Shown piece after piece: positions 2,571 to 21,526 of a stretch of DNA of 23,459 bases. Under the pieces are notes generated by a model, which was given only the letters and a program-made list of their open reading frames with translations, was not told the DNA's origin and did no database searches. Position 1 is the stretch's first letter, and the number at the start of each line of letters is the position of its first letter. The DNA comes from a virus. The stretch lies in IMG/VR virus record IMGVR_UViG_3300038361_000065, positions 1 through 23,459 of that record, one strand, 5' to 3'. The position numbers and the translations under genes were made by a program.

Positions 2571-3440
2571 TTATGAAACGTCACTTAGGGCGTAAACGCC
2601 GTAAGTGTCTACCGCTTCAACTTCTTTCCACAATCCCTGAACGACCATTTCGAAGCCGCGCATAGATGCGTTACGTTCAAGTTCGACATTAAAGAAACCT
2701 TTATCTGTCAAACCTATTGCCATGTGAGAGAAGATCCCGGCTGCAGCATCGCCGCCACTGGCCACATCATCATTAATTTCTGGCGTGAAATCAATTCCAA
2801 GGCCGGCGTATTGACTCAAGATTCCCGAAGTCTGCAATTGTTCTGCTAGCGCGGTGCGCTGTGAATTGCTAGAAACTGCGGTTGTATCTAATATGCCGGT
2901 GAAGCCTTTCGGCCCCCAGATCTGTTTAGGGTGGAATACACCATAAAACGGGCCAGGCGCGTTTGCTGTGTGCAATTGCTGCAGGGCTGCCATAATATGA
3001 TCATTGATAAGAGTTGTTCCTGCTCCACAAACTGTTTGTGAAAACCCGGTAAATAATCCGACAAGATCATCGTCCAGCTTGGCTGCCATCGCATTTCCAA
3101 GCAAGATTCCTGCACCATCACCAACGTTTTCAACGCTAGAATTTACTGCAAGATCGGTAATCACGGACATTAAAAGGTGTTCATCTACGGAGCCGGCAAC
3201 GGTACTGGAAGATAACTGCTTAACCGTGGAATAATCCGTTCCTTCTGTGCCTGACTGAACGTCAGAAGAAGCAAGGGCATCCCATTTATTGAAGTTTGCA
3301 GCTTTTCCGGGGAATCCGATAATTGATTCGCGGTGAACCTTATCGGGCATTACGCCAGCCCTGTTTAGCTGGAAGATAGCATCTGCAAGCAGAGTATCAA
3401 CGTAATCATTTAACGAAGTGGTGGTCGTTTCGTTGGCCAT
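2571..3440 (-). CDS. Major capsid protein, probably HK97-fold
   Basis: 289 residues, after an AAAGG ribosome site. The order scaffold then capsid is typical of phage head operons. The N-terminal arm is Thr-rich, followed by a helix (LNDYVDTLLADAIFQLNRAG). The middle has Gly/Ala-rich helices typical of the family's spine region. The second half has a pattern often seen in phage capsids of the P22/N4-like branch of the HK97 fold: AALQQLHTANAPGPFYGVFH, then KGFFNVELERNASMRGFEMV near the end. There is no obvious N-terminal maturation protease segment and no nearby protease gene, so the neighbouring separate protein probably serves as scaffold. The exact subfamily cannot be set by eye. Confidence 0.85.
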   Translation of the reverse strand: MANETTTTSLNDYVDTLLADAIFQLNRAGVMPDKVHRESIIGFPGKAANFNKWDALASSDVQSGTEGTDYSTVKQLSSSTVAGSVDEHLLMSVITDLAVNSSVENVGDGAGILLGNAMAAKLDDDLVGLFTGFSQTVCGAGTTLINDHIMAALQQLHTANAPGPFYGVFHPKQIWGPKGFTGILDTTAVSSNSQRTALAEQLQTSGILSQYAGLGIDFTPEINDDVASGGDAAAGIFSHMAIGLTDKGFFNVELERNASMRGFEMVVQGLWKEVEAVDTYGVYALSDVS

Positions 3441-3452
3441 AAGAAAGCCTTT

Positions 3453-4130
3453 CTATCTTATAGAACCATCCGGCATTCTTATTGTTCCGATGGAGTTTCC
3501 GCCGGATTTCTGCGAATCTCGCCATTCCCCAAATTTCTTTGGATCTTTGGCTGCAAATTCAGCACGGGAATTATACCCGCCAAATTTGCCATCGCCTACG
3601 GATGCCGGGTGGGCGGGATCAACTTCAACGTCCTTGGTTGCTTCGAAGATCCCAATTTTTTGATATTCGGCATATTTAGTAATATTGGATTGGATATCAG
3701 CATCCGTTAATTCAGCCCCATCTGCAGCAAAAACAAAATTGTCCTTCACTGTTTCAAAACCCTTATGTTCTTTTAAGGTTTTTAATTTAGCTTCCCAATT
3801 TGTCTTTGCTTTGCCCGCTTGATCCTTTTTCCATGTTTCCATTTTTCCCAGCTGCGCTTGCAGGTCTGGAAATTTCGCTTCTGCTTCTGTAAGGCGGGTT
3901 GTTAAGGCTGTATTTTCCGTTTCTAAAGTGCCAATTTTCTTACGCCTAGTAATGGTTTCATCCTTTAAAAAAGATATGTTCCGTTTATCATCAGCGATAA
4001 TTATATCTTTTTCTTCATTAGCTAGAATAAGAGCGCTATGTCCAGATTCAAGAACCTTCAAATCTGCTTCGTGTGGGGAACCTTCCCCTTGACTTTCGCG
4101 TATCCGCGCGAGTGATTCCTTAAACCCCAT
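3453..4130 (-). CDS. Probable capsid scaffolding protein
   Basis: 225 residues, starting at an ATG in a TAATG overlap with the upstream gene and ending just before the capsid gene. Residues about 40 to 115 are highly charged and heptad-like (FLKDETITRRKKIGTLETEN and following), consistent with a coiled coil. A short C-terminal region contains SGGNSIGTIRMPDGSIR and several basic residues, which could be a capsid-binding tail. Scaffolds of P22- and GP20-type phages share this size, composition and location directly before the capsid gene. The assignment rests on position and coiled-coil character rather than a recognised motif. Confidence 0.75.
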   Translation of the reverse strand: MGFKESLARIRESQGEGSPHEADLKVLESGHSALILANEEKDIIIADDKRNISFLKDETITRRKKIGTLETENTALTTRLTEAEAKFPDLQAQLGKMETWKKDQAGKAKTNWEAKLKTLKEHKGFETVKDNFVFAADGAELTDADIQSNITKYAEYQKIGIFEATKDVEVDPAHPASVGDGKFGGYNSRAEFAAKDPKKFGEWRDSQKSGGNSIGTIRMPDGSIR

Positions 4131-4678
4131 TAATCCGCATCCTTTATAAATTTATTTGATTTTGGAAACATTGTTAAAAAAGAATTGCTTGAGCAATTGA
4201 GAATTTTGAGCCTGCCAATATATTTGGAAAAGTAATCAAAGTGTGATCCTTTAATATGTTGGTAATACTGGGGGTTGTTTCGTTCTATGATTGGATTTCC
4301 CCCCCAAAAATAATTTCCTATCATGTCAACGCCGCACAAATATACGACTTTGAAATGTAATAATTCAGCCAAATCTAAAGAAATAATTATGCTGGGTTTC
4401 TTCTGCGTTCCCAGATTGATATAATTTGGATCCTTATAATTTCCCCAGCTTACTTTTAAAGGGGCCTTGGATTCGCAGGCCGGCAGATCTACGGAAACGT
4501 GAGCGTCAGGCGTGAATAGTTTTCCAATCCGATTAACTCCAATTGTAAAGAACTTCTGTATTTTATTTATATCTAAATCGTTTAAGGAAGATCCATTTCC
4601 CAGCACAATGCAAGGCTTGGATGTGTCGATTTCCCGGCGGGCTTCTTCGATGCTGCCATAATGGGAATTCTTAAGCAT
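4130..4678 (-). CDS. Glycosyltransferase-like protein, second of a tandem pair
   Basis: 182 residues, closely similar to the gene before it. Shared elements lie at matching positions: VLGNGSSLNDLD (25-36), TIGVNRIGK (45-53), FTPDAHVSVD (55-64), KVSW (75-78), YLCGVD (113-118) and GNYFWGGNP (121-129). The GNG-S-S..DLD start, the following VN and the later CG-D motif resemble the nucleotide-sugar fold of GT42 sialyltransferases and of DUF115/MptE-like proteins. The gene starts 8 bases inside the stop of its paralogue and has no clear ribosome site, so it is probably translationally coupled. Substrate is unknown. Modification of a virion protein or of host surface glycan are both possible. Enzymatic activity is an inference. 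Confidence 0.7.
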   Translation of the reverse strand: MLKNSHYGSIEEARREIDTSKPCIVLGNGSSLNDLDINKIQKFFTIGVNRIGKLFTPDAHVSVDLPACESKAPLKVSWGNYKDPNYINLGTQKKPSIIISLDLAELLHFKVVYLCGVDMIGNYFWGGNPIIERNNPQYYQHIKGSHFDYFSKYIGRLKILNCSSNSFLTMFPKSNKFIKDAD

Positions 4679-5228
4679 TGAATAGGCTAGAATACTCTAG
4701 GAATTCGATTTCGGTATCCTTGGAGCAATTGAACATTTGGCCGCCTTTATGGATAAGGCTTTCGGATATGCTGTGGATGTGGGTAAGCTGGGCTTTGATT
4801 ATTGAACGATAATATAAATGGTTTCCGCGTTCCTTCCGGGGATCCGCGCCCCAAAAGTAATTGCCCTTATAATCCGCACCACATAGATAAATAAATTTTA
4901 TATTTAGATATACTGCAAAATAGCAGGCCAGCGTTACGCTTGGAACTTTGGTTCTTCCGATAAATGGAAGGTAATCTTCTTCCGGGTACCTATCCCAAGA
5001 AACCTTGGCCGGGGAATCAGATTCACAAACCGGCGCATCGACGCATATATGAATATCAGGTGTAAAGATCTTGCCTATCCGATTAACCCCAATGGTTAAA
5101 TGATCGCTGATCTTTGAGAAATCCAAATCATTTATTGAAGATCCGTTCCCCAGAATTACGCAAGAATCTAGGTTGATCTCTTGTCTTATTTCGTCGGTAG
5201 ATTTATAAGTTGAACGTTCTAGTTTCAC
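4671..5228 (-). CDS. Glycosyltransferase-like protein, first of a tandem pair
   Basis: 185 residues from a GTG start (GGGG four to five bases upstream), overlapping the previous gene by 26 bases. Conserved elements are VILGNGSSINDLD (24-36), TIGVNRIGK (45-53), FTPDIHICVD (55-64), YLCGAD (114-119), GNYFWGADP (122-130) and an NCS near the end (167-169). The pattern is that of a Rossmann-like domain with a Gly-rich first loop, seen in GT42 sialyltransferases and DUF115/MptE-like proteins. At about 185 residues it is shorter than typical GT42 enzymes, so it may be a minimal form. It sits among head genes, an unusual place for sugar enzymes. Alternative: another nucleotide-binding Rossmann protein without transferase activity. 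Confidence 0.7.
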   Translation of the reverse strand: MKLERSTYKSTDEIRQEINLDSCVILGNGSSINDLDFSKISDHLTIGVNRIGKIFTPDIHICVDAPVCESDSPAKVSWDRYPEEDYLPFIGRTKVPSVTLACYFAVYLNIKFIYLCGADYKGNYFWGADPRKERGNHLYYRSIIKAQLTHIHSISESLIHKGGQMFNCSKDTEIEFLEYSSLFNA

Positions 5229-5655
5229 TTTTCCCCAGCATATTATCCATTGCTTTTAAAACAAACCCCTGTACTATCCCGTCCATCTTTCCGGGAACTA
5301 ATTGGCTTGGGCTAGATATTACCCGGCCGTTATCAGCCAGCCACTTAATTTTTGCACCCTCGCTTGTCCAGCCCAGCTTAAAGCCCTTAGATGTGATTCC
5401 TTTGACTTCCAGATCCCTTAATAGGTCAGAAGTAAGAACCGGGGCCGTTTTATCCTTAAATTGCGTTGCCTGCCGTTTAAAGCTATTGCCGCGCTTCCTT
5501 TCCCCGTATCCTTCGGAATAGTCATTGAACTTATCGCCGTTTACGTCTAGGCTATCTATAAACGTCCACTTCCGCCAGAAGTCCCGCGTTCTAGCGCCCA
5601 TTCTCAACCAATCAGCTTTTTTTAATACTCCCATTATTCTGGAACTGGTTCCCAT
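5203..5655 (-). CDS. Possible head or tail completion protein
   Basis: 150 residues from ATG 5655, or 143 from the ATG at 5634, which forms a TAATG overlap with the upstream stop. Neither start has a close ribosome site. The protein is basic at the N-terminus (KKADWLRMGARTRDFWRKW). It carries a pattern loosely like virion morphogenesis or gpG-type tail completion proteins: LTSDLLRDLEVKGITSKGF, then WLADNGRVISSPSQLVPGK near the C-terminus. Position after the MuF gene supports a connector or completion role. Homology is weak by eye, so the name is tentative. Confidence 0.65.
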   Translation of the reverse strand: MGTSSRIMGVLKKADWLRMGARTRDFWRKWTFIDSLDVNGDKFNDYSEGYGERKRGNSFKRQATQFKDKTAPVLTSDLLRDLEVKGITSKGFKLGWTSEGAKIKWLADNGRVISSPSQLVPGKMDGIVQGFVLKAMDNMLGKSETRTFNL

Positions 5656-5795: not shown

Positions 5796-7355
5796 TTATA
5801 CCCCCTCTATTGTTTCCTCAAACGCCTTTTTTACGTTTGCAGGAATTTTTATTTTTAATTCAATCGCCGTTCCTGTTTCTGCGAATAGTTCAGCGTCTTT
5901 TGATGCTGCATATTCGCTGACTTTATATTTATCCGCTAAAGTTACGTTGTTACGCTTTAAGGCTTGCTGCCATTTTCCGTTTAATTTTTTATGGTGATCT
6001 ACGGCGTGCCAAGCTTCATGGATTGCTGTAGAAGTTACCCTATCAGGGGCAACGGTTGAAATTGTAAACCGTTCCGCATTATCAATAAATACTTGCCGCC
6101 TGTCGAATGCTGTTTTCCTTGATGTTGGCATGGATCGCCCGCTCCATTCTAGGCGCTCGTTTTGCTGCATTACTTTAGCGCGCTGCTTCATGCTTAAATA
6201 TTGGCTGGGGGTTTGCGGTCTATAAGAATTGGAAACGTAATTTTTGCGGAATCTTATCCCGTCCCATTTCATCTTGCCGCCGACCATATATCTTTCATAT
6301 TGGGCGGCGTTCCTTGATCGGCCCCTTATCAATCCAAGATTATCAACTTTTACGTTATACCTATTAAGAATTGGTGAAAGGCCGTTTGTAATGCTCCGCA
6401 GCATATTATTTGGAACGCCCGCAAGTCCCACTTTTGCTTTGAATGCCGGGTTCCCTGCTGTGGCTCTTGTTAATCTTTGCAAGTGTTCTGGTAATTCTTT
6501 TGTGACGGTTGTCAGCCCTTCCAAGTTGTTCAATAAACCTTTTCTGTTTAGCTTGGTAATATCTGGACCCTTAACTGCTGCAGGCGCTTTTATTCCAGCT
6601 TGGGTTTGCCTTAAGGTTCTGGGCTTCTTCCATTTATCGTTTAATATCTTATCATCCTTAATCTTCTGGGCATTCTTTGGATCGTGCAAGACATTTTCCC
6701 CGGTGTCTAGTTCCCAATTATGCCGGCAATTGAAACCCCCGCCATCTACTAAAGCGCCGGGGAATTGTTCTTCTATTTCTTCAACTGTAAGCGGCCCAGC
6801 TGCCATCATTTCAATACATACATCCCGCGTTTTTTCATCCATTGGCCCAATATAAACAAATTTCTCGTCTGCTGGAAGTTCCTTTGCCATTGTTGCATTA
6901 ATGGTTCTTGAGAAAGTAGATAAGCCGGTATTTACTAGGGTTTCTAATTGGTCGGGGCGGAGCGTGGAACCATTGATGGCCTGCATTATTTCCTTACGCC
7001 CGGCCCCGGATAGTATCCCCCGCGCAACTTCTGCTTTTACTGTGCCTGCTAGATCCCCAATTCTGGATAAGAATTCAGCGGATCCGATATTCACATAAGA
7101 AGTAATTACGGCTGCCTGAATTGGAGCAATTGCGGTGGTTACTTTAAGCTTTGAAATATAGCCAGCATCAAGCGCGGATTTTATTTTGGTGTTCATATCA
7201 TCAATAATTTTACCCGTTGGCAAATTACTTATTATTCTAGCTGCTTCGCTAGGGGGAAGCCCTGCGGAAACATCAAATAAAACCCCGCTTATTATGTTCG
7301 TGGTTTCTTCTATTATCTTCTGGATTTCTTGTTCAGGCGTTGGCATCGCTGTCAT
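5796..7355 (-). CDS. MuF-type minor head protein with C-terminal zinc-metallopeptidase-like domain
   Basis: 519 residues, overlapping the portal gene by 23 bases. Residues about 1-215 are a MuF-like head morphogenesis domain: a helical N-terminus, then PMDEKTRDVC (171-180) and GGGFNCRHNW (205-214), the conserved Cys pattern of that family. MuF proteins sit inside the capsid near the portal and can be injected. The C-terminal part contains TAIHEAWHAVDHH, with HEAWH at 446-450, a zincin HExxH site. SEYAASKDAELFAET follows at 480-494, whose E489 or E493 could be the third ligand. This matches the known habit of MuF proteins to carry toxin or enzyme domains at the C-terminus. The metal-binding residues are seen; protease activity and its target are inferred. 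Confidence 0.85.
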   Translation of the reverse strand: MTAMPTPEQEIQKIIEETTNIISGVLFDVSAGLPPSEAARIISNLPTGKIIDDMNTKIKSALDAGYISKLKVTTAIAPIQAAVITSYVNIGSAEFLSRIGDLAGTVKAEVARGILSGAGRKEIMQAINGSTLRPDQLETLVNTGLSTFSRTINATMAKELPADEKFVYIGPMDEKTRDVCIEMMAAGPLTVEEIEEQFPGALVDGGGFNCRHNWELDTGENVLHDPKNAQKIKDDKILNDKWKKPRTLRQTQAGIKAPAAVKGPDITKLNRKGLLNNLEGLTTVTKELPEHLQRLTRATAGNPAFKAKVGLAGVPNNMLRSITNGLSPILNRYNVKVDNLGLIRGRSRNAAQYERYMVGGKMKWDGIRFRKNYVSNSYRPQTPSQYLSMKQRAKVMQQNERLEWSGRSMPTSRKTAFDRRQVFIDNAERFTISTVAPDRVTSTAIHEAWHAVDHHKKLNGKWQQALKRNNVTLADKYKVSEYAASKDAELFAETGTAIELKIKIPANVKKAFEETIEGV

Positions 7356-8703
7356 TTAAAGCAGCTGCAAATCTGTCTGCTGGGGTTGCCTTGGCTGGAT
7401 CCCGGTATCCTCTTATTTCCATATAAGCGATTGCTGCAGCACGGTTTTTAAATTTATCTGGATCCCGTTCCATAAAGATATCAACTTCATCTTTGATAAA
7501 TAATTTCATATCATGTTCATCTTGCGCGCGCTTTTCGTCTGGCGTGAGGATGTTTTCGGTTTCCCTGAAATCAATGCTGAATACGCTTCCAATTTCAATT
7601 TTATTGGCCTTAAGGATTGCCTTGTCAATTTGAAAGGCTTTGTTTTCATCTTCGCGCTTTCTGGCGATATCGGAAATTCTATCATCTTGTAATTCTTGGC
7701 ATCTTATGGCCTTGGCGGTTCCTGACTCTGCGGTCGTGCCTTCGAAGAAATCACCGGGTAAGTGGTAGCTTAAGCTTAAGCGCTTTTGCATTCCGTTTAA
7801 GGCGGTTTCTATGCTTTCAACTGTATCAGGTGGGCTGACCATTTCAACCCTAGCATCTACTGGCAAAACGCCTGAATGGCCCGGCCCTGTTTTAACTGCA
7901 TCAAGATCAATTCTAGTTCCGAAATAATATTCCCTGCCAAACGATTGAAGAATGCAGTTCCCATATTTGGCGGTTTCAATTACATTCATTGCCAGATTGG
8001 TTTGAATTATATCCCTAGTTACATCCACCGCAAGAAAGCTTCTTTCTGGAACGCCATCCCGGAAGCTGATCCATCCCGGAAGCAAGCCGTAAGGGTTGAC
8101 GTGTTCGGGGTTCTTTTCATCAGGTAAGATTTTAGTAACTATCCCTGAATCATCGCCAATAGTTCCGCGCTCATATTTGTAAGTGTGATCCTTGTCCCAA
8201 TAAACCCATACTTCCGCATCCGCGTTTGGCTGCGCTCTGGATGAAATCGGGTAAGTGAAGGCTATTGGTTCCATTGGATTGAACTTGGAAAACAATAGTT
8301 CATACTGCCAAATAAGATCCGTTTCAATTTTGCCATCCCGCCAAACCCGCATATTTAAAACGGCATCAAGCAGATTGGTTATCTTTTCGGATCGCTGCAT
8401 TTTAGGATCAAGCCCGCGCCAATATTTTTTATAAAGATCAGCTGCGTTCTTTTCGTCAATCATCCTTATTGGTTCATATAAATAAACAAGGCTGATTCTG
8501 TCGATTATTCGCTTTGTGATATTAATTATGGCGGTGGGCGTATTATCAACTTCAATAAATTCTTTCGTGTAATCTTCTGTATCAGCATGGAAGTAATCAA
8601 GGGCGATTCTTCTATCCCTGAACCATGATTTAATGGTTTGCTTATCGAATCCAATTTTAGTGGCTGCAAGCAGCAATTTTCCTAGTTCTGATTTTACTAT
8701 CAT
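7333..8703 (-). CDS. Portal protein, SPP1 gp6-like
   Basis: 456 residues. The ATG overlaps the terminase stop as ATGA. The protein forms the ring at the capsid vertex through which DNA enters and leaves. The N-terminal region has IINITKRIIDRISLVYLYEP. The later conserved stretch is LSLSYHLPGDFFEGTTAES followed by GTAKAIRCQELQDDR, close to the pattern of SPP1-type portals, followed by a charged helix. Length is normal for the family (about 440-500). Position between large terminase and MuF gene is the standard order. Confidence 0.9.
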   Translation of the reverse strand: MIVKSELGKLLLAATKIGFDKQTIKSWFRDRRIALDYFHADTEDYTKEFIEVDNTPTAIINITKRIIDRISLVYLYEPIRMIDEKNAADLYKKYWRGLDPKMQRSEKITNLLDAVLNMRVWRDGKIETDLIWQYELLFSKFNPMEPIAFTYPISSRAQPNADAEVWVYWDKDHTYKYERGTIGDDSGIVTKILPDEKNPEHVNPYGLLPGWISFRDGVPERSFLAVDVTRDIIQTNLAMNVIETAKYGNCILQSFGREYYFGTRIDLDAVKTGPGHSGVLPVDARVEMVSPPDTVESIETALNGMQKRLSLSYHLPGDFFEGTTAESGTAKAIRCQELQDDRISDIARKREDENKAFQIDKAILKANKIEIGSVFSIDFRETENILTPDEKRAQDEHDMKLFIKDEVDIFMERDPDKFKNRAAAIAYMEIRGYRDPAKATPADRFAAALNDSDANA

Positions 8704-9956
8704 CTTTTTACGCTCCCGTAAAATGGTTTTATAATTGGGAATTCATAATCGGCGGCATATCTGCAGCCGTCGCTTGAGTGGGTTAGTAATAAATTTGATT
8801 TATCAATTTCTCTCGTGCCGGGCTTATTAATCACTTGTTCAAAATCTGTGATCAGTGGCTTACATCTTGCATCCATAATACAATCATCTTGCAGCATAGT
8901 ATTCATTGCGTTTACTGAATCAACTATTGAAGGATGGGCCGGCTTAAATCGGATTTCGAAGCCGTTGTTTTCTATTATTTGGTGGTCTGATTCTTTTGAA
9001 TTCGTGGATCTATCTTTCCCGGATGTATCGGGATAAGCTATAAGACTCCAATATTTGGGATATCTTCTAAAAACTTCTTTGCAAGCATCATCTGTAAGTA
9101 ATCTGTTTGGGGAATGGGACATTGAAATCGTATCAAAGATTCGCATTCTAGGCTTTTTATCATACTTCTGCCATAACACTAATTCCATCGGGTGAACGTT
9201 AAAATCAAAGCAAACCCGCAGTGGAAGCATTGGATTATATTCAACTGGCTTCACGTTATCGGCCCGGCTGAAATTGTAATAAGTAGACCCTGCTTGCAGA
9301 TTAACAAATTCCCCGTCCCTGTAAGCCTTGATTAATGTATCATCATAAGTGGATTCAATCAGGCGGATATAATTCTCTGGAAGGTGGGGGTTGTCAGTGG
9401 TCTTGCCTTGGATCAAGTGCCGGCTACCGTCGTTATCTTCAACAAATATTTTATGGGTGTATTTGAACCCTTCCGGGCTGGTAACAAAAAAGATTTTAAT
9501 GTTTTCAGATCCGCGCATCCTTCCGATTGCTTTCTTCCATGCCATATCGCAATTTTTCCAGCTTTCAACGTCGAATTCATCAAAGCCAATCCAAGTTAAT
9601 TCTGTGCCTACAATATATTTTGGTTTCTGCAGCTGGTATATTTTTATCTTCCCATAATCAGATTCGAAGCGATGTTTGGCGATGTTATAATCATAATCAA
9701 TATAATTGCTGGATAGAACTTCTTGAAATGGTTCAATGAATAATTCTTCTGCTAGGTCGTAAGTTGGATAAATAACCCAGCCATTTGAAAGGCCCATCTT
9801 GTTTTTAAGGAAGATATGATTGATAAGGGCTTCTGCTAGAAACACATAAGTTTTACCACCACCAAGGCCAGTAACTAGCGCCTTAATTTGGTATTGACTG
9901 GTTAGGAATTCCCATTGGTGCGGAAGATAATCTTCTTGTCTGACTTGTAATTGCAT
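8700..9956 (-). CDS. terL: Terminase large subunit
   Basis: 418 residues: an ATPase and nuclease that pumps and cuts DNA during packaging. Walker A is GLGGGKT (30-36) and Walker B is WIGFDEFD (122-129), with D126 and E127 as metal and catalytic residues. A coupling motif FFVTSPEG follows (156-163). The nuclease domain begins at RVCFDFNVHP, with D251 as the likely first acidic residue. It continues with IAYPDTSGKD (306-315, D310) and an Asp near the C-terminus in SSDGCRYAADYEF. The start lies in a TAATG overlap with the small terminase gene. Length is in the normal range. Confidence 0.95.
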   Translation of the reverse strand: MQLQVRQEDYLPHQWEFLTSQYQIKALVTGLGGGKTYVFLAEALINHIFLKNKMGLSNGWVIYPTYDLAEELFIEPFQEVLSSNYIDYDYNIAKHRFESDYGKIKIYQLQKPKYIVGTELTWIGFDEFDVESWKNCDMAWKKAIGRMRGSENIKIFFVTSPEGFKYTHKIFVEDNDGSRHLIQGKTTDNPHLPENYIRLIESTYDDTLIKAYRDGEFVNLQAGSTYYNFSRADNVKPVEYNPMLPLRVCFDFNVHPMELVLWQKYDKKPRMRIFDTISMSHSPNRLLTDDACKEVFRRYPKYWSLIAYPDTSGKDRSTNSKESDHQIIENNGFEIRFKPAHPSIVDSVNAMNTMLQDDCIMDARCKPLITDFEQVINKPGTREIDKSNLLLTHSSDGCRYAADYEFPIIKPFYGSVKR

Positions 9957-17997: not shown

Positions 17998-18786
17998 TTA
18001 CATTATCCAATTCATTATTTGTTTAGGTTCATAACCATCATTAATGGCCTTCTTAACATCGCCTATGCTGGATTTCGCTTTGAATGTATGGCCAATCTTG
18101 TTTTCGATTTCGACGTATCTATTTAATAATTCTGGGTTCGCTTTCCCAGCTGTGACAAGCGCATCAAAAGGGCTGAATATACAGAAGCAGCAAGATAATC
18201 TAGGCATTCCCAAATCATACGCTGGGTGATAATCTAATTTATTATGTTTGATTATTTTCCATACATATTTTGTACTCCAATCGTGGATGGGTAAGTAATC
18301 GTGAACCAATCTTTTTTTAGTGGTGAGCATCTTGTTAATAGCTAAAACAGGTTTCTTGCTTCTGGCTGGGCTTTCTTCTTTTCTGAAACCGAATACATGA
18401 AGTATTTTGCATTCGCCAAGGCCCTTGGTAAGCATCGTAACAACTCTAGCGCCGGGCGCTCTTTTAAAATCGCTGGTGCAATACCTTTGATTGTTTGAAG
18501 GAAACTTTTTTCTTCTTTCAATATACTCAAGCAGGGTTTCTTCATATCCGTTTTTGTCGCGTCTTTTGGAAAAATATATTTTCAATCCAAAATCTGCAGC
18601 TTGTTTTCCTGCTAGTTCTCTTGTGCCTTCCCATTCCATTTCGCCAAGGTCTTGATGTGAAACTACAATTTTATGTTTTGGGTAAAATTGATCATCTGCC
18701 ATTCTGCATATTTCGAAAATAGAACATAAGCTATCCTTGCCGGCGCTGCTGTTGATAATGATTAATTCGTAATTATGTAAGTCCAT
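17998..18786 (-). CDS. PAPS-reductase-like PP-loop protein
   Basis: 262 residues, with an AGGGG ribosome site six bases before ATG. The PP-loop is SAGKDS (14-19), for ATP or PAPS. RYCTSDFKRAPG (101-112) and GFRKEESPAR (133-142) are typical of the phosphoadenosine phosphosulfate reductase family. LSCCFCIF (198-205) supplies three Cys that, with C103, could bind an iron-sulfur cluster or zinc. Family members reduce sulfate, thiolate tRNA or insert sulfur in DNA backbones (DndC type). No Dnd partner genes are visible, so the substrate is open. DNA or nucleotide modification against host defence is a hypothesis only. Confidence 0.82.
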   Translation of the reverse strand: MDLHNYELIIINSSAGKDSLCSIFEICRMADDQFYPKHKIVVSHQDLGEMEWEGTRELAGKQAADFGLKIYFSKRRDKNGYEETLLEYIERRKKFPSNNQRYCTSDFKRAPGARVVTMLTKGLGECKILHVFGFRKEESPARSKKPVLAINKMLTTKKRLVHDYLPIHDWSTKYVWKIIKHNKLDYHPAYDLGMPRLSCCFCIFSPFDALVTAGKANPELLNRYVEIENKIGHTFKAKSSIGDVKKAINDGYEPKQIMNWIM

Positions 18787-19454: not shown

Positions 19455-19811
19455 TTACCCCTTTCCTTGATTCATTATAAGCTGATCCAATTTATCGTCT
19501 ATCTTCCCAACGCTTCTTTTGTGTTCTTTGGAAGATTCATGGATGCCTTTTATATTATCTTTAAAAACTGCAATGTCTTTGTCATGATCCCGGACAATAT
19601 CATCAACTGATTTTATTGTTTGATAATTATGCTTTATATTGGTGGCGTTGGTTTCGATATCTGTTTTATTTGAACCGATATCCTTTTCAAATTTCCCTGT
19701 AATCTTCGCCCATAAAAGAACTTGAGCCACAATAAAAACAATGATTGCAATGATTTCTTTGAGTTGTAAATATGTTTCGCCTAGATCCGTGCCGGCCAAA
19801 TTGGTTCCCAT
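19455..19811 (-). CDS. Membrane-anchored coiled-coil protein, possible lysis accessory
   Basis: 118 residues, AAGGA six bases before ATG, overlapping the upstream gene by 31 bases. A hydrophobic helix lies at about residues 20-35 (IIAIIVFIVAQVLLWA). It is followed by a Lys/Asp/Asn-rich coiled coil to the end (NKTDIETNATNIKHNYQTIK, then KIDDKLDQLIMNQ). Similar one-span coiled-coil proteins occur next to holins and endolysins (holin partner, XhlA-like or spanin-like). No lipobox or Pro-rich spanin end is seen, so a holin partner is slightly more likely than a spanin. Confidence 0.65.
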   Translation of the reverse strand: MGTNLAGTDLGETYLQLKEIIAIIVFIVAQVLLWAKITGKFEKDIGSNKTDIETNATNIKHNYQTIKSVDDIVRDHDKDIAVFKDNIKGIHESSKEHKRSVGKIDDKLDQLIMNQGKG

Positions 19812-20569
19812 TCTGCTTCCTTTTCGCGTTTAATATTTTCGTAAGTATCTTCCTGCCAGATATACTTCTGGCCTTCATTTGCAATTCTTGGGCTATCGCC
19901 GCGGCTGGTCCCTTGGGCGTGTCTTATGTGGCTTAAGGAAGTTGGCCTGTATTCCGGGGTTTCAATTTTAAAGATCTTGTATTTGATATTTGGGTTCAAT
20001 ATACAGAGCGCGCCGCAGCCATTGGAAACAAGCCAGTTCATCCCGGCCTTTTGATAAATAGCCATTCGCAATTCAACGTTTATATTTTCAATTGATAATT
20101 CCGTTTCATTATCCTGAATGAATAAATCGTTTGAGCCATTAAAAGCGCTCCACCATGCTTTCTTATTTGAATTCCGTAATGGATGCAATGATCTTTCCCG
20201 GAAGGTAATTACATTGTCATAAGTAGGGGAATTTTCCAAAGCGAATTCACCGGCCCGGATGTATCCGAACTTTCCAGAGCGGTAAATATTTACATCTAGT
20301 TCTAATAAGTTATAACTTAAGTTTGATCCTTCCAGCCCTATTCCAACGCCCCTGCAATTGGGCATCATTAAAGCCAGTGGAAACAATAGATGCGCAATCC
20401 GCCATTTCCAATCAAAATTGGCTTCCTTGTACCTTATCGCCACATCTGGGCTTATATATACATAAAAGGAAGAAGCGGCGTTCTGGATGCGGCTTTGTTC
20501 GCAGAGCGCCAAGAATACCACAAAGTCAAAGCTGCAATTCTGCTTTGCTAGGTCATAGTTGAATATCAT
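19781..20569 (-). CDS. Unknown protein beside the methyltransferase gene
   Basis: 262 residues, ATG overlapping the methyltransferase end by 17 bases. It begins MIFNYDLAKQNCSFDFVVFL and has WKWRIAHLLFPLALMMPNCR (around 55-74). EFALENSPTYDNVITFRERS follows near 107-126 and NWLVSNGCGALCILNPNIKY near 177-196. The last third is charged with GTSRGDSPRIANEGQKYIWQ. The start resembles proteins of environmental phages that I recall as hypothetical; no catalytic signature can be named. Coupling to a methyltransferase suggests a shared path, perhaps sugar or nucleotide related. Confidence 0.75.
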   Translation of the reverse strand: MIFNYDLAKQNCSFDFVVFLALCEQSRIQNAASSFYVYISPDVAIRYKEANFDWKWRIAHLLFPLALMMPNCRGVGIGLEGSNLSYNLLELDVNIYRSGKFGYIRAGEFALENSPTYDNVITFRERSLHPLRNSNKKAWWSAFNGSNDLFIQDNETELSIENINVELRMAIYQKAGMNWLVSNGCGALCILNPNIKYKIFKIETPEYRPTSLSHIRHAQGTSRGDSPRIANEGQKYIWQEDTYENIKREKEAEWEPIWPARI

Positions 20570-21113
20570 TAAGAGAAAACCTTAAATATTGATAGTTATT
20601 TTCTTTATATGTTTTTGATACAGAAACCAAAGTGTAATTTTTTAATATCTCTGATAAATTATTTGGCTCTGCGTAACATGAATAAATTACATTTTGTGGA
20701 TCAAACTTTAATTTACCGCGTCTTATTTGCAGGCCCAGAATTGGGATCCCGGAAATATTTAATTCAGTCAGGAAATAATAAAAATAATCTTCTGTGAAAT
20801 GCTGGATGCAGGCCAAACTTATAAGAATATCCGCGCCAATATCAAGGCTGCAGGGGGCCTTTAAGAATTCGCAATTATAGCCCTTAAGCGTTTCTTTTGC
20901 CTTTTTTATAGATCTATCTGCAATGTCAATTCCAATATATTTTTTTATTCCCTGATCAAATAAGGCTTTTCCAAACCATCCCCCGCCAATCCCGTAATCA
21001 ACAACAACTTTATTTTTGAAGCCAAAAGGGAATTCAGCCAAATCATATTCACGCGGCTCAAGATGCGCCCAGCGTGGAACGCAAGTTTCCCACCATTGTT
21101 TTCTAGTAATCAC
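20553..21113 (-). CDS. Class I SAM-dependent methyltransferase
   Basis: 186 residues from a GTG start at 21113, which overlaps the lysozyme stop as GTGA and has AAGG seven bases upstream; a TTG at 21119 is less likely. Motif I is VVVDYGIGGGWFG (36-48), the SAM loop. YIGIDIADRSIKKAKE (59-74) supplies the acidic residue that binds the ribose, and ILISLACIQHF matches motif IV/V. No target-recognition domain or DNA-methylase NPPY/DPPY motif is visible, so DNA methylation is not implied. It looks like a small-molecule, sugar or protein methyltransferase. Confidence 0.8.
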   Translation of the reverse strand: MITRKQWWETCVPRWAHLEPREYDLAEFPFGFKNKVVVDYGIGGGWFGKALFDQGIKKYIGIDIADRSIKKAKETLKGYNCEFLKAPCSLDIGADILISLACIQHFTEDYFYYFLTELNISGIPILGLQIRRGKLKFDPQNVIYSCYAEPNNLSEILKNYTLVSVSKTYKENNYQYLRFSLNDIQL

Positions 21114-21526
21114 CGGCAAGCCTTGATAATGTTTCTTAAAATCTTGGCCCGCTTAAGGTGGATCCGGCCCCAACTACTATCCATCATTTCAACCGCTGCA
21201 TTCTTATAATCTTTGGCCTTCAAGAATTCGATTGTTTTTTTGAACTTCTGAAAGCCTGTCATTCCCAGCTGATAAACCATTTCAACAACAACGCCCTTGG
21301 CTGGTCTGGGCTGATCCCGGAACCAATCAAAATTCTGATAGCAATTAATAAGGATCTTGTTTAAATCTTCATCAAGCATAAGGCCAGCAATATCTTCTGA
21401 AATATTTAAGTAATCGGTGCGCTTACCGTGTGCAATGGTATCAAACCCGTTTATGTCTTTGTAAACTGTGGCGGAATATCCTTCATGATCAATAACTCTG
21501 CCCCTGATATCTTTTATAACTCCCAT
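21110..21526 (-). CDS. T4-type lysozyme (endolysin)
   Basis: 138 residues, with an AGAGAGGA ribosome site. The start is IDHEGYSATVYKDINGFDTI and then AHGKRT. Glu15, Asp24 and Thr30 keep the spacing of the T4 lysozyme catalytic triad (Glu11, Asp20, Thr26). The second half has MVYQLGMTGFQKFKKTIEFL and AAVEMMDSSWGRIHLKRAKI, matching the later helices of GH24 enzymes. There is no signal or anchor sequence, so release would need a holin, in line with the membrane genes downstream. It cuts peptidoglycan between MurNAc and GlcNAc. Confidence 0.92.
   Translation of the reverse strand: MGVIKDIRGRVIDHEGYSATVYKDINGFDTIAHGKRTDYLNISEDIAGLMLDEDLNKILINCYQNFDWFRDQPRPAKGVVVEMVYQLGMTGFQKFKKTIEFLKAKDYKNAAVEMMDSSWGRIHLKRAKILRNIIKACR

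Follow-up and report, generated by a model that had tools for sequence, protein, structure and literature searches.

What two short, closely similar genes are doing in the middle of a phage head operon is the question raised by this locus. The window (the entire virus record of 23,459 bases) comes from a marine-type phage, and an earlier note had placed the two genes between a completion-type gene and the scaffold gene, traced them to a duplication, and likened them to GT42- or DUF115/MptE-like sugar enzymes. Here we call them P2 (upstream) and P1 (downstream), and refer to them, together with their counterparts in related phages, as the array.

A paralogous pair embedded in the head operon

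The genes concerned all lie on the minus strand and are given here from the terminase towards the capsid gene.

8700..9956, minus: terminase large subunit (TerL), 418 aa; phrog_2 E 2.9e-31; served as the query for finding relatives
7333..8703, minus: portal-like gene, 456 aa; labelled by synteny, since it comes after TerL in relatives, with 36–51% identity in most of them
5796..7355, minus: MuF-type head morphogenesis protein, 519 aa; phrog_595 E 3.6e-8, and PF04233 at E 1.9e-5, under the cut-off
5203..5655, minus: completion-like head gene, 150 aa; labelled from gene order, as the upstream neighbour kept in terminase relatives
4671..5228, minus: P2, upstream array copy, 185 aa, GTG start; predicted MptE/Maf/GT42-like fold, with GNGSSINDLD, TIGVNRIGK, PDIHICVD, YLCGAD and GNYFWG (open reading frame, translation and AlphaFold2 model)
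4130..4678, minus: P1, downstream array copy, 182 aa (open reading frame and translation)
3453..4130, minus: scaffold-like gene, 225 aa, coiled-coil-rich; labelled from its position before the capsid gene
2571..3440, minus: major capsid protein gene, 289 aa; phrog_544 major head protein at E 0.002 (weak), plus homologues in relatives, down to 6.5e-61

P2 starts 26 bases within the 3' end of the completion-like gene, P1 and P2 overlap by 8 bases, and the stop codon of P1 overlaps the ATG of the scaffold-like gene (TTAATG); the pair is therefore embedded in the head operon and does not occupy an intergenic gap. The completion-like gene found no match among PHROG profiles, and the flanking genes were checked by synteny: in the terminase relatives a gene of ~190–200 aa comes after the same completion-like gene and before the capsid gene, and the scaffold-like gene is 34% identical to the gene at the same position in the sister phages L020 and L022. 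Coordinates, overlaps and neighbouring gene order thus agree with the placement made in the earlier note, and in the sister phages, too, transferase-fold genes sit among head genes in the slot between completion-like and scaffold genes.

As a separate observation on this operon, the MuF-type protein is 519 aa long, compared with ~240–250 aa in most relatives and in L022 (those of L011 and L013 are also longer). Its extra C-terminal part contains HEAWH, a metalloprotease-like HExxH motif at about 6004–6022, and could be a MuF-fused effector-like domain.

P1 and P2 are 43–44% identical (43% over 182 residues, BLASTP E 2e-52), and their alignment score of 391 lies far above the shuffled expectation (mean 30 and maximum 52 in 500 shuffles), which bears out an origin by duplication. 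The motifs that had been listed as common to the two, GNGSS-NDLD, TIGVNRIGK, PD-H--VD, KVSW, YLCG-D and GNYFWG, are all found in both copies at matching positions.

Copy number and distribution among relatives

Relatives of the array surfaced only through a terminase alignment scan. Scans of viral contigs with P1, P2 and their two-row alignment, a scan of genome contigs with the two-row alignment, and a tblastn search of 50,697 phage records at E 0.01 gave no matches; at E 10, P1 gave just scattered weak matches, the best at E 0.4. A scan with a six-row array alignment then added L086–L091, and an eight-row scan found no new contigs.

Five IMG/VR contigs (L020, L022, L086, L087 and L088) represent sister phages that are near-identical among themselves and whose TerL is 68% identical to that of the window. 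Those covering the slot carry the array in exactly the position that it occupies in the window, with the same fold, motifs, protein length and overlap geometry, their proteins being 40–51% identical to P1 and P2. The copy number differs: against two copies in the window, there are three in tandem, all intact, in two sister contigs (L022 and L088). The other three (L020, L086 and L087) retain copies two and three, but their first copy is disrupted by an identical, frame-shifting 325-bp deletion; in L086 the third copy runs off the contig end. The earlier description of two retained copies thus fits the window but not the array in general.

An assembly artefact was considered as the source of the deletion, but two observations speak against it: the breakpoints are identical in three contigs with three metagenome identifiers and, in these contig-level data, the deletion does not track the linked copy c SNPs. 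L020 has the same change counts as the intact L088, and L087 the same as the intact L022. Because the deletion does not follow these SNPs, the deletion and three-copy forms may well be alleles segregating with recombination, as the sequences suggest. One array copy is evidently dispensable, its loss having occurred without loss of the lineage. Among the sister contigs, the SNPs in copy c are few and all synonymous, bar a one-base indel at the 3' end, and copy b has none.

P2 is 51% identical to sister copy b and 48% to sister copy c, against 44% to its own neighbour P1. Since P2 is thus nearer to the sister copies than to P1, these identities hint that the P1/P2 duplication may predate the divergence of the two lineages. 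In a paralogue tree of five array copies and three outgroups, no branch was resolved within the five copies, and none of the pairings tested (the window pair, P2 with L022 b, P1 with L022 c, and the L022 trio) was rejected (p-AU 0.12–0.35, from few rows), so that an ancestral duplication and independent expansions are inseparable on this tree.

Beyond the sister phages, the slot is simpler. Among the first 14 terminase relatives, those that cover it have one gene of ~190–200 aa (in some with a further small gene) between the completion-like gene and the capsid gene, with no array. The wider terminase scan comprised 80 loci, and in the 42 more distant relatives that have both flanking genes no homologue of the array came up when the loci were searched with a profile; the interval from completion-like to capsid gene is 626–1269 bases there, as against 1988–2314 in the array-bearing sisters and ~1.76 kb in the window (from coordinates). 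The pair that the earlier note suggested looking for in other phages is therefore matched by an array in the sister contigs, with three copies or two plus a broken one, and has no counterpart in 42 distant relatives. Given the sisters with two or three copies and the distant relatives with none, the array is most simply regarded as a lineage-specific addition, a copy-number-variable cassette; this is simpler than loss in all the others. Separately, the intervals of L058 (1269 bases) and of L073 and L075 (1156 bases) are longer than those of other array-less relatives, and because of this length the slot may hold another insert there.

Selfish or neutral amplification, in which a duplicated gene hitchhikes with no specific head-related role, would account for the varying copy number, for the copy broken in three of the five sister contigs, and for the distant relatives that manage without an array. 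We consider it improbable: the two other copies keep intact, conserved coding frames in the same slot, in phages whose terminases are only 68% identical, and the pattern of synonymous change in copy c and of none in copy b also speaks against it.

The array may have a further relative nearby. In L022 a 205-aa gene (7235–7852, plus strand), also present in L020 and L087, directly follows the capsid gene and has a PS...GxD block in common with the array (hhalign E 4e-5 in a single comparison, probability 70%, 38 columns). It may be a divergent array member beyond the capsid gene; its single-sequence fold model was unusable (pLDDT 32.6).

Fold and predicted ligand site

An AlphaFold2 model of P2, built from a six-sequence alignment, is of moderate confidence (mean pLDDT 72.5, pTM 0.75). 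VIA-align placed it closest to the Maf glycosyltransferase 5mu5 (Z 9.9, 158 residues, 3.9 A), with Cst-I (Z 9.2) and SteA (9.0) next and CstII at 8.4; the HPPK/MptE of Methanocaldococcus jannaschii (8sd5) scored Z 8.9 over 136 residues and thiamine pyrophosphokinases Z 8–8.8, against a background of Z ~5 for unrelated Rossmann-like proteins. Plain Foldseek against the PDB returned nothing at E <= 0.001, its best match being a thiamine pyrophosphokinase at E 0.017, and because this ranking is weak our statement of the fold rests on VIA-align together with profiles. A PDB profile search matched Cst-I at E 1.9e-4 with a six-row profile and at 7.9e-6 with an eight-row profile to which larger phage homologues had been added, the GNGxS and GxD blocks being in register; the eight-row profile matched HPPK weakly, at E 0.028. 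The P2 model thus has the PF01973 (Maf/MptE) core fold, by its scores to 5mu5 and 8sd5, and structure and profile agree on a Cst-like fold with GNGxS and GxD blocks.

Family profiles reach the array proteins less readily. The cut-off of PF01973 (MptE-like/DUF115, Maf_flag10), 34.6 bits, was missed by P1 (19 bits, E 0.0013), by P2 (11 bits) and by the sister copies, and phrog_4603 ('alpha-2,3-sialyltransferase') matched P1 at E 6e-4 over only positions 89–168 of its 178 and P2 not at all. The larger phage homologues L089–L091 (255–279 aa), of which two come from contigs 219 and 351 kb long, match PF01973 at E 1e-7 to 5e-11 and phrog_4603 at E 4e-11 to 4e-15 and, judged by sequence, bridge the gap between the array proteins and these families. 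Two other matches were set aside as chance, namely PezA, the sole match in NCBIfam, and a Hemopexin Pfam match in copy c (E 0.017).

At the moderate confidence of the model, P1 and P2 are shown to be minimal single-domain proteins of the fold group that unites Maf (DUF115/PF01973), GT42 and MptE pyrophosphokinases. Of the earlier proposal, the fold therefore stands, upheld by VIA-align on the predicted structure and by the Cst-I profile, though only faintly echoed by plain Foldseek; the designation as sugar enzymes is not established by it, since the fold is common to pyrophosphokinases, the GT42 histidine varies and PF01973 stays under its cut-off. We treat "sugar enzyme" as a hypothesis for the first of these reasons.

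The pyrophosphokinases deserve weight in their own right. If the array proteins were MptE/TPK-like pyrophosphokinases, or other nucleotide-dependent small-molecule transferases carried as passenger genes in the head operon, it would be natural that the M. jannaschii and thiamine enzymes lie about as near to the P2 model as Cst-I does and that one of the latter heads the Foldseek list; D64 and D119, invariant in all eight phage sequences compared, would also suit a metal-dependent enzyme. The profile, however, favours Cst-I/CstII over HPPK by E 7.9e-6 to 0.028, and the fixed head-operon slot in both lineages suggests a head-linked role, and we regard this explanation as unlikely.

The residues that are invariant in all five array copies and all three larger homologues (in P2 numbering) are G27, N28, S31, T45–R50 (TIGVNR), P57, D64, P73, L115, G117, D119 and C168, which together look like a kept ligand site. 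Retention of the GNG and CG-D residues had been named beforehand as one of two points on which the proposal hung, and GNG-x-S and [C/S]G-x-D are present in every array copy. The general base of GT42 is H188 in CstII and H202 in Cst-I (PMC4202792). At the corresponding column, which falls in a weakly aligned region and was compared by sequence alignment only, P2 has S, P1 has H, and L022 a, b and c have R, T and D, so that P1 is the only array copy with a histidine there. As this column is not kept, and the alignment around it is weak, we do not claim membership of GT42.

Variation at this column could also be read as the relaxed active site of transferase-fold proteins that have lost catalysis and been co-opted for head assembly or decoration, a role that would explain the tandem copies. 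The divergence of the copies, the dispensability of one of them in the sister phages and the position of the array next to the scaffold gene are all in keeping with this. We nonetheless think it rather unlikely, given that GN(G/A)xS, TIGVNR, D64, GxD and C168 are invariant even in comparison with the jumbo-phage homologues, as one would expect of a ligand site that has been kept.

Possible role and comparison with known systems

We propose that P1 and P2 are minimal transferases of nucleotide-activated substrates, probably glycosyltransferases acting on virion proteins, as has been proposed for phage Corndog. A small tandem array would have entered a head operon that is standard in other respects, at a point between the completion-like and scaffold genes. 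Its products would bind a nucleotide-activated substrate in a cleft formed by the GNGxS loop, the end of the TIGVNR strand, D64 and the GxD loop (P2 numbers), and would pass a sugar, for example a nonulosonic-acid-type residue, to head proteins of the same operon before or during assembly. Each copy would have an acceptor site or activity of its own (the earlier note had also suggested a heterodimer or two sugars), and the array as a whole would be a virion-modification cassette working like Maf or a Corndog-type capsid glycosyltransferase. By analogy with Corndog, Che8 and Rita, and Maf, the mechanism that we tentatively favour is one in which copies differing in target or activity pass an activated sugar on to head proteins. 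Lying close to head genes is no proof of acting on the head, and no sugar-activation gene was recognised among the window proteins scanned, the record being a 23.5-kb fragment.

Other genes of the window are of interest for modification or metabolism. A SAM methyltransferase-like gene (20553–21119, minus strand, TTG start, PF13649 E 1.8e-6) overlaps a gene for 262 aa that has no family match (19781–20569), and it is possible that the region 19781–21119 (minus strand) is a second modification cassette; a phage lysozyme-like gene (21110–21526) adjoins the methyltransferase-like one. Elsewhere, at 17998–18786 (minus strand), lies a phosphoadenosine phosphosulfate reductase-like gene of auxiliary-metabolic type (phrog_424 E 4.6e-32, PF01507 E 7.5e-12).

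The acceptor might instead be on the host. GT42 enzymes act on lipooligosaccharide. Alteration of the host O-chain is a common proposal for phage glycosyltransferases, for example in pelagimyophages (PMC7029224), and the array behaves as an added cassette, as would a late-expressed moron whose products alter host surface glycans, for superinfection exclusion or serotype change, and leave virion proteins untouched. A location inside the head operon, with overlaps with head genes on both sides, would be unusual for such genes, and no long membrane-anchoring extension is evident by eye in these proteins of 182–190 aa; we hold this explanation, too, to be unlikely.

If virion proteins are indeed the acceptors, the system could be an undescribed one: minimal (~185 aa) Maf/GT42-fold transferases in a tandem array of variable copy number, where each copy has its own site or group on the capsid under assembly, and where gaining or breaking a copy alters the particle surface within one phage population; in this full form we think it quite unlikely. 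To our knowledge, few phage capsid-glycosylating enzymes have been characterised, and glycosylation of phage virions is regarded as rare. Transferase cassettes in phage head operons are already known from Corndog; for minimal Maf/GT42-fold proteins in a tandem array that varies in copy number and lies beside the scaffold gene, we found no description in the literature searched. A minimal transferase fold repeated two to three times by the scaffold gene, with a natural copy-loss polymorphism, would give a compact system in which to ask whether modification cassettes of their own belong to head operons and what is gained by extra copies. Should the proteins prove not to be sugar enzymes, the array still marks out a short phage branch within the Maf/GT42/MptE fold group.

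The family has been recorded before, with no function assigned: the viral structure library contains UniProt A0A0F7L6G4, an uncharacterized protein of an uncultured marine virus, compared by protein only, that resembles the array proteins in length (186 aa) and is 46% identical over its full length (Foldseek E 2.8e-15). The MptE-like proteins of jumbo or large-contig phages (L089–L091, PHROG 4603) have the GNxxS, TIGVNR, GxD and NC motifs in common with the array at 21–27% identity, but are longer, occur as single copies in the stretches seen, have non-head neighbours and keep an FYG..xxH motif. On two of these large contigs, lysine-rich VKKKA repeat proteins are encoded one gene downstream of the MptE-like gene (L089 8832–9761, L090 8899–9366).

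Among characterised enzymes, Maf (PF01973; 5mu5) has the same fold and is a cytoplasmic protein-modifying enzyme that O-glycosylates flagellin in bacteria (PMC11339370), but it is a three-domain protein of >600 aa with 16% identity to the array proteins. Cst-I and CstII of GT42 are alike in fold and in the two-block profile match; the array proteins are shorter and do not conserve the catalytic histidine column. The M. jannaschii MptE/HPPK resembles them in fold, with its weak profile match, and the chemistry of MptE/HPPK would differ. Che8 and Rita are reported to carry glycans on their capsids, in work cited in PMC11256854. The closest parallel in genome position is the cluster O mycobacteriophage Corndog, whose gp35–gp38 (an O-methyltransferase, two glycosyltransferases and a putative N-acetylglucosaminyltransferase) lie between the portal and capsid protease genes; these modification genes are expressed, their products were not found in virions, and they have been suggested to modify the capsid (PMC4351075). 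Corndog and the array thus both have glycosyltransferase or glycosyltransferase-like genes inside a head operon, with capsid modification proposed, but the Corndog genes are located between portal and protease, and the published account does not present them as tandem copies of one short fold.
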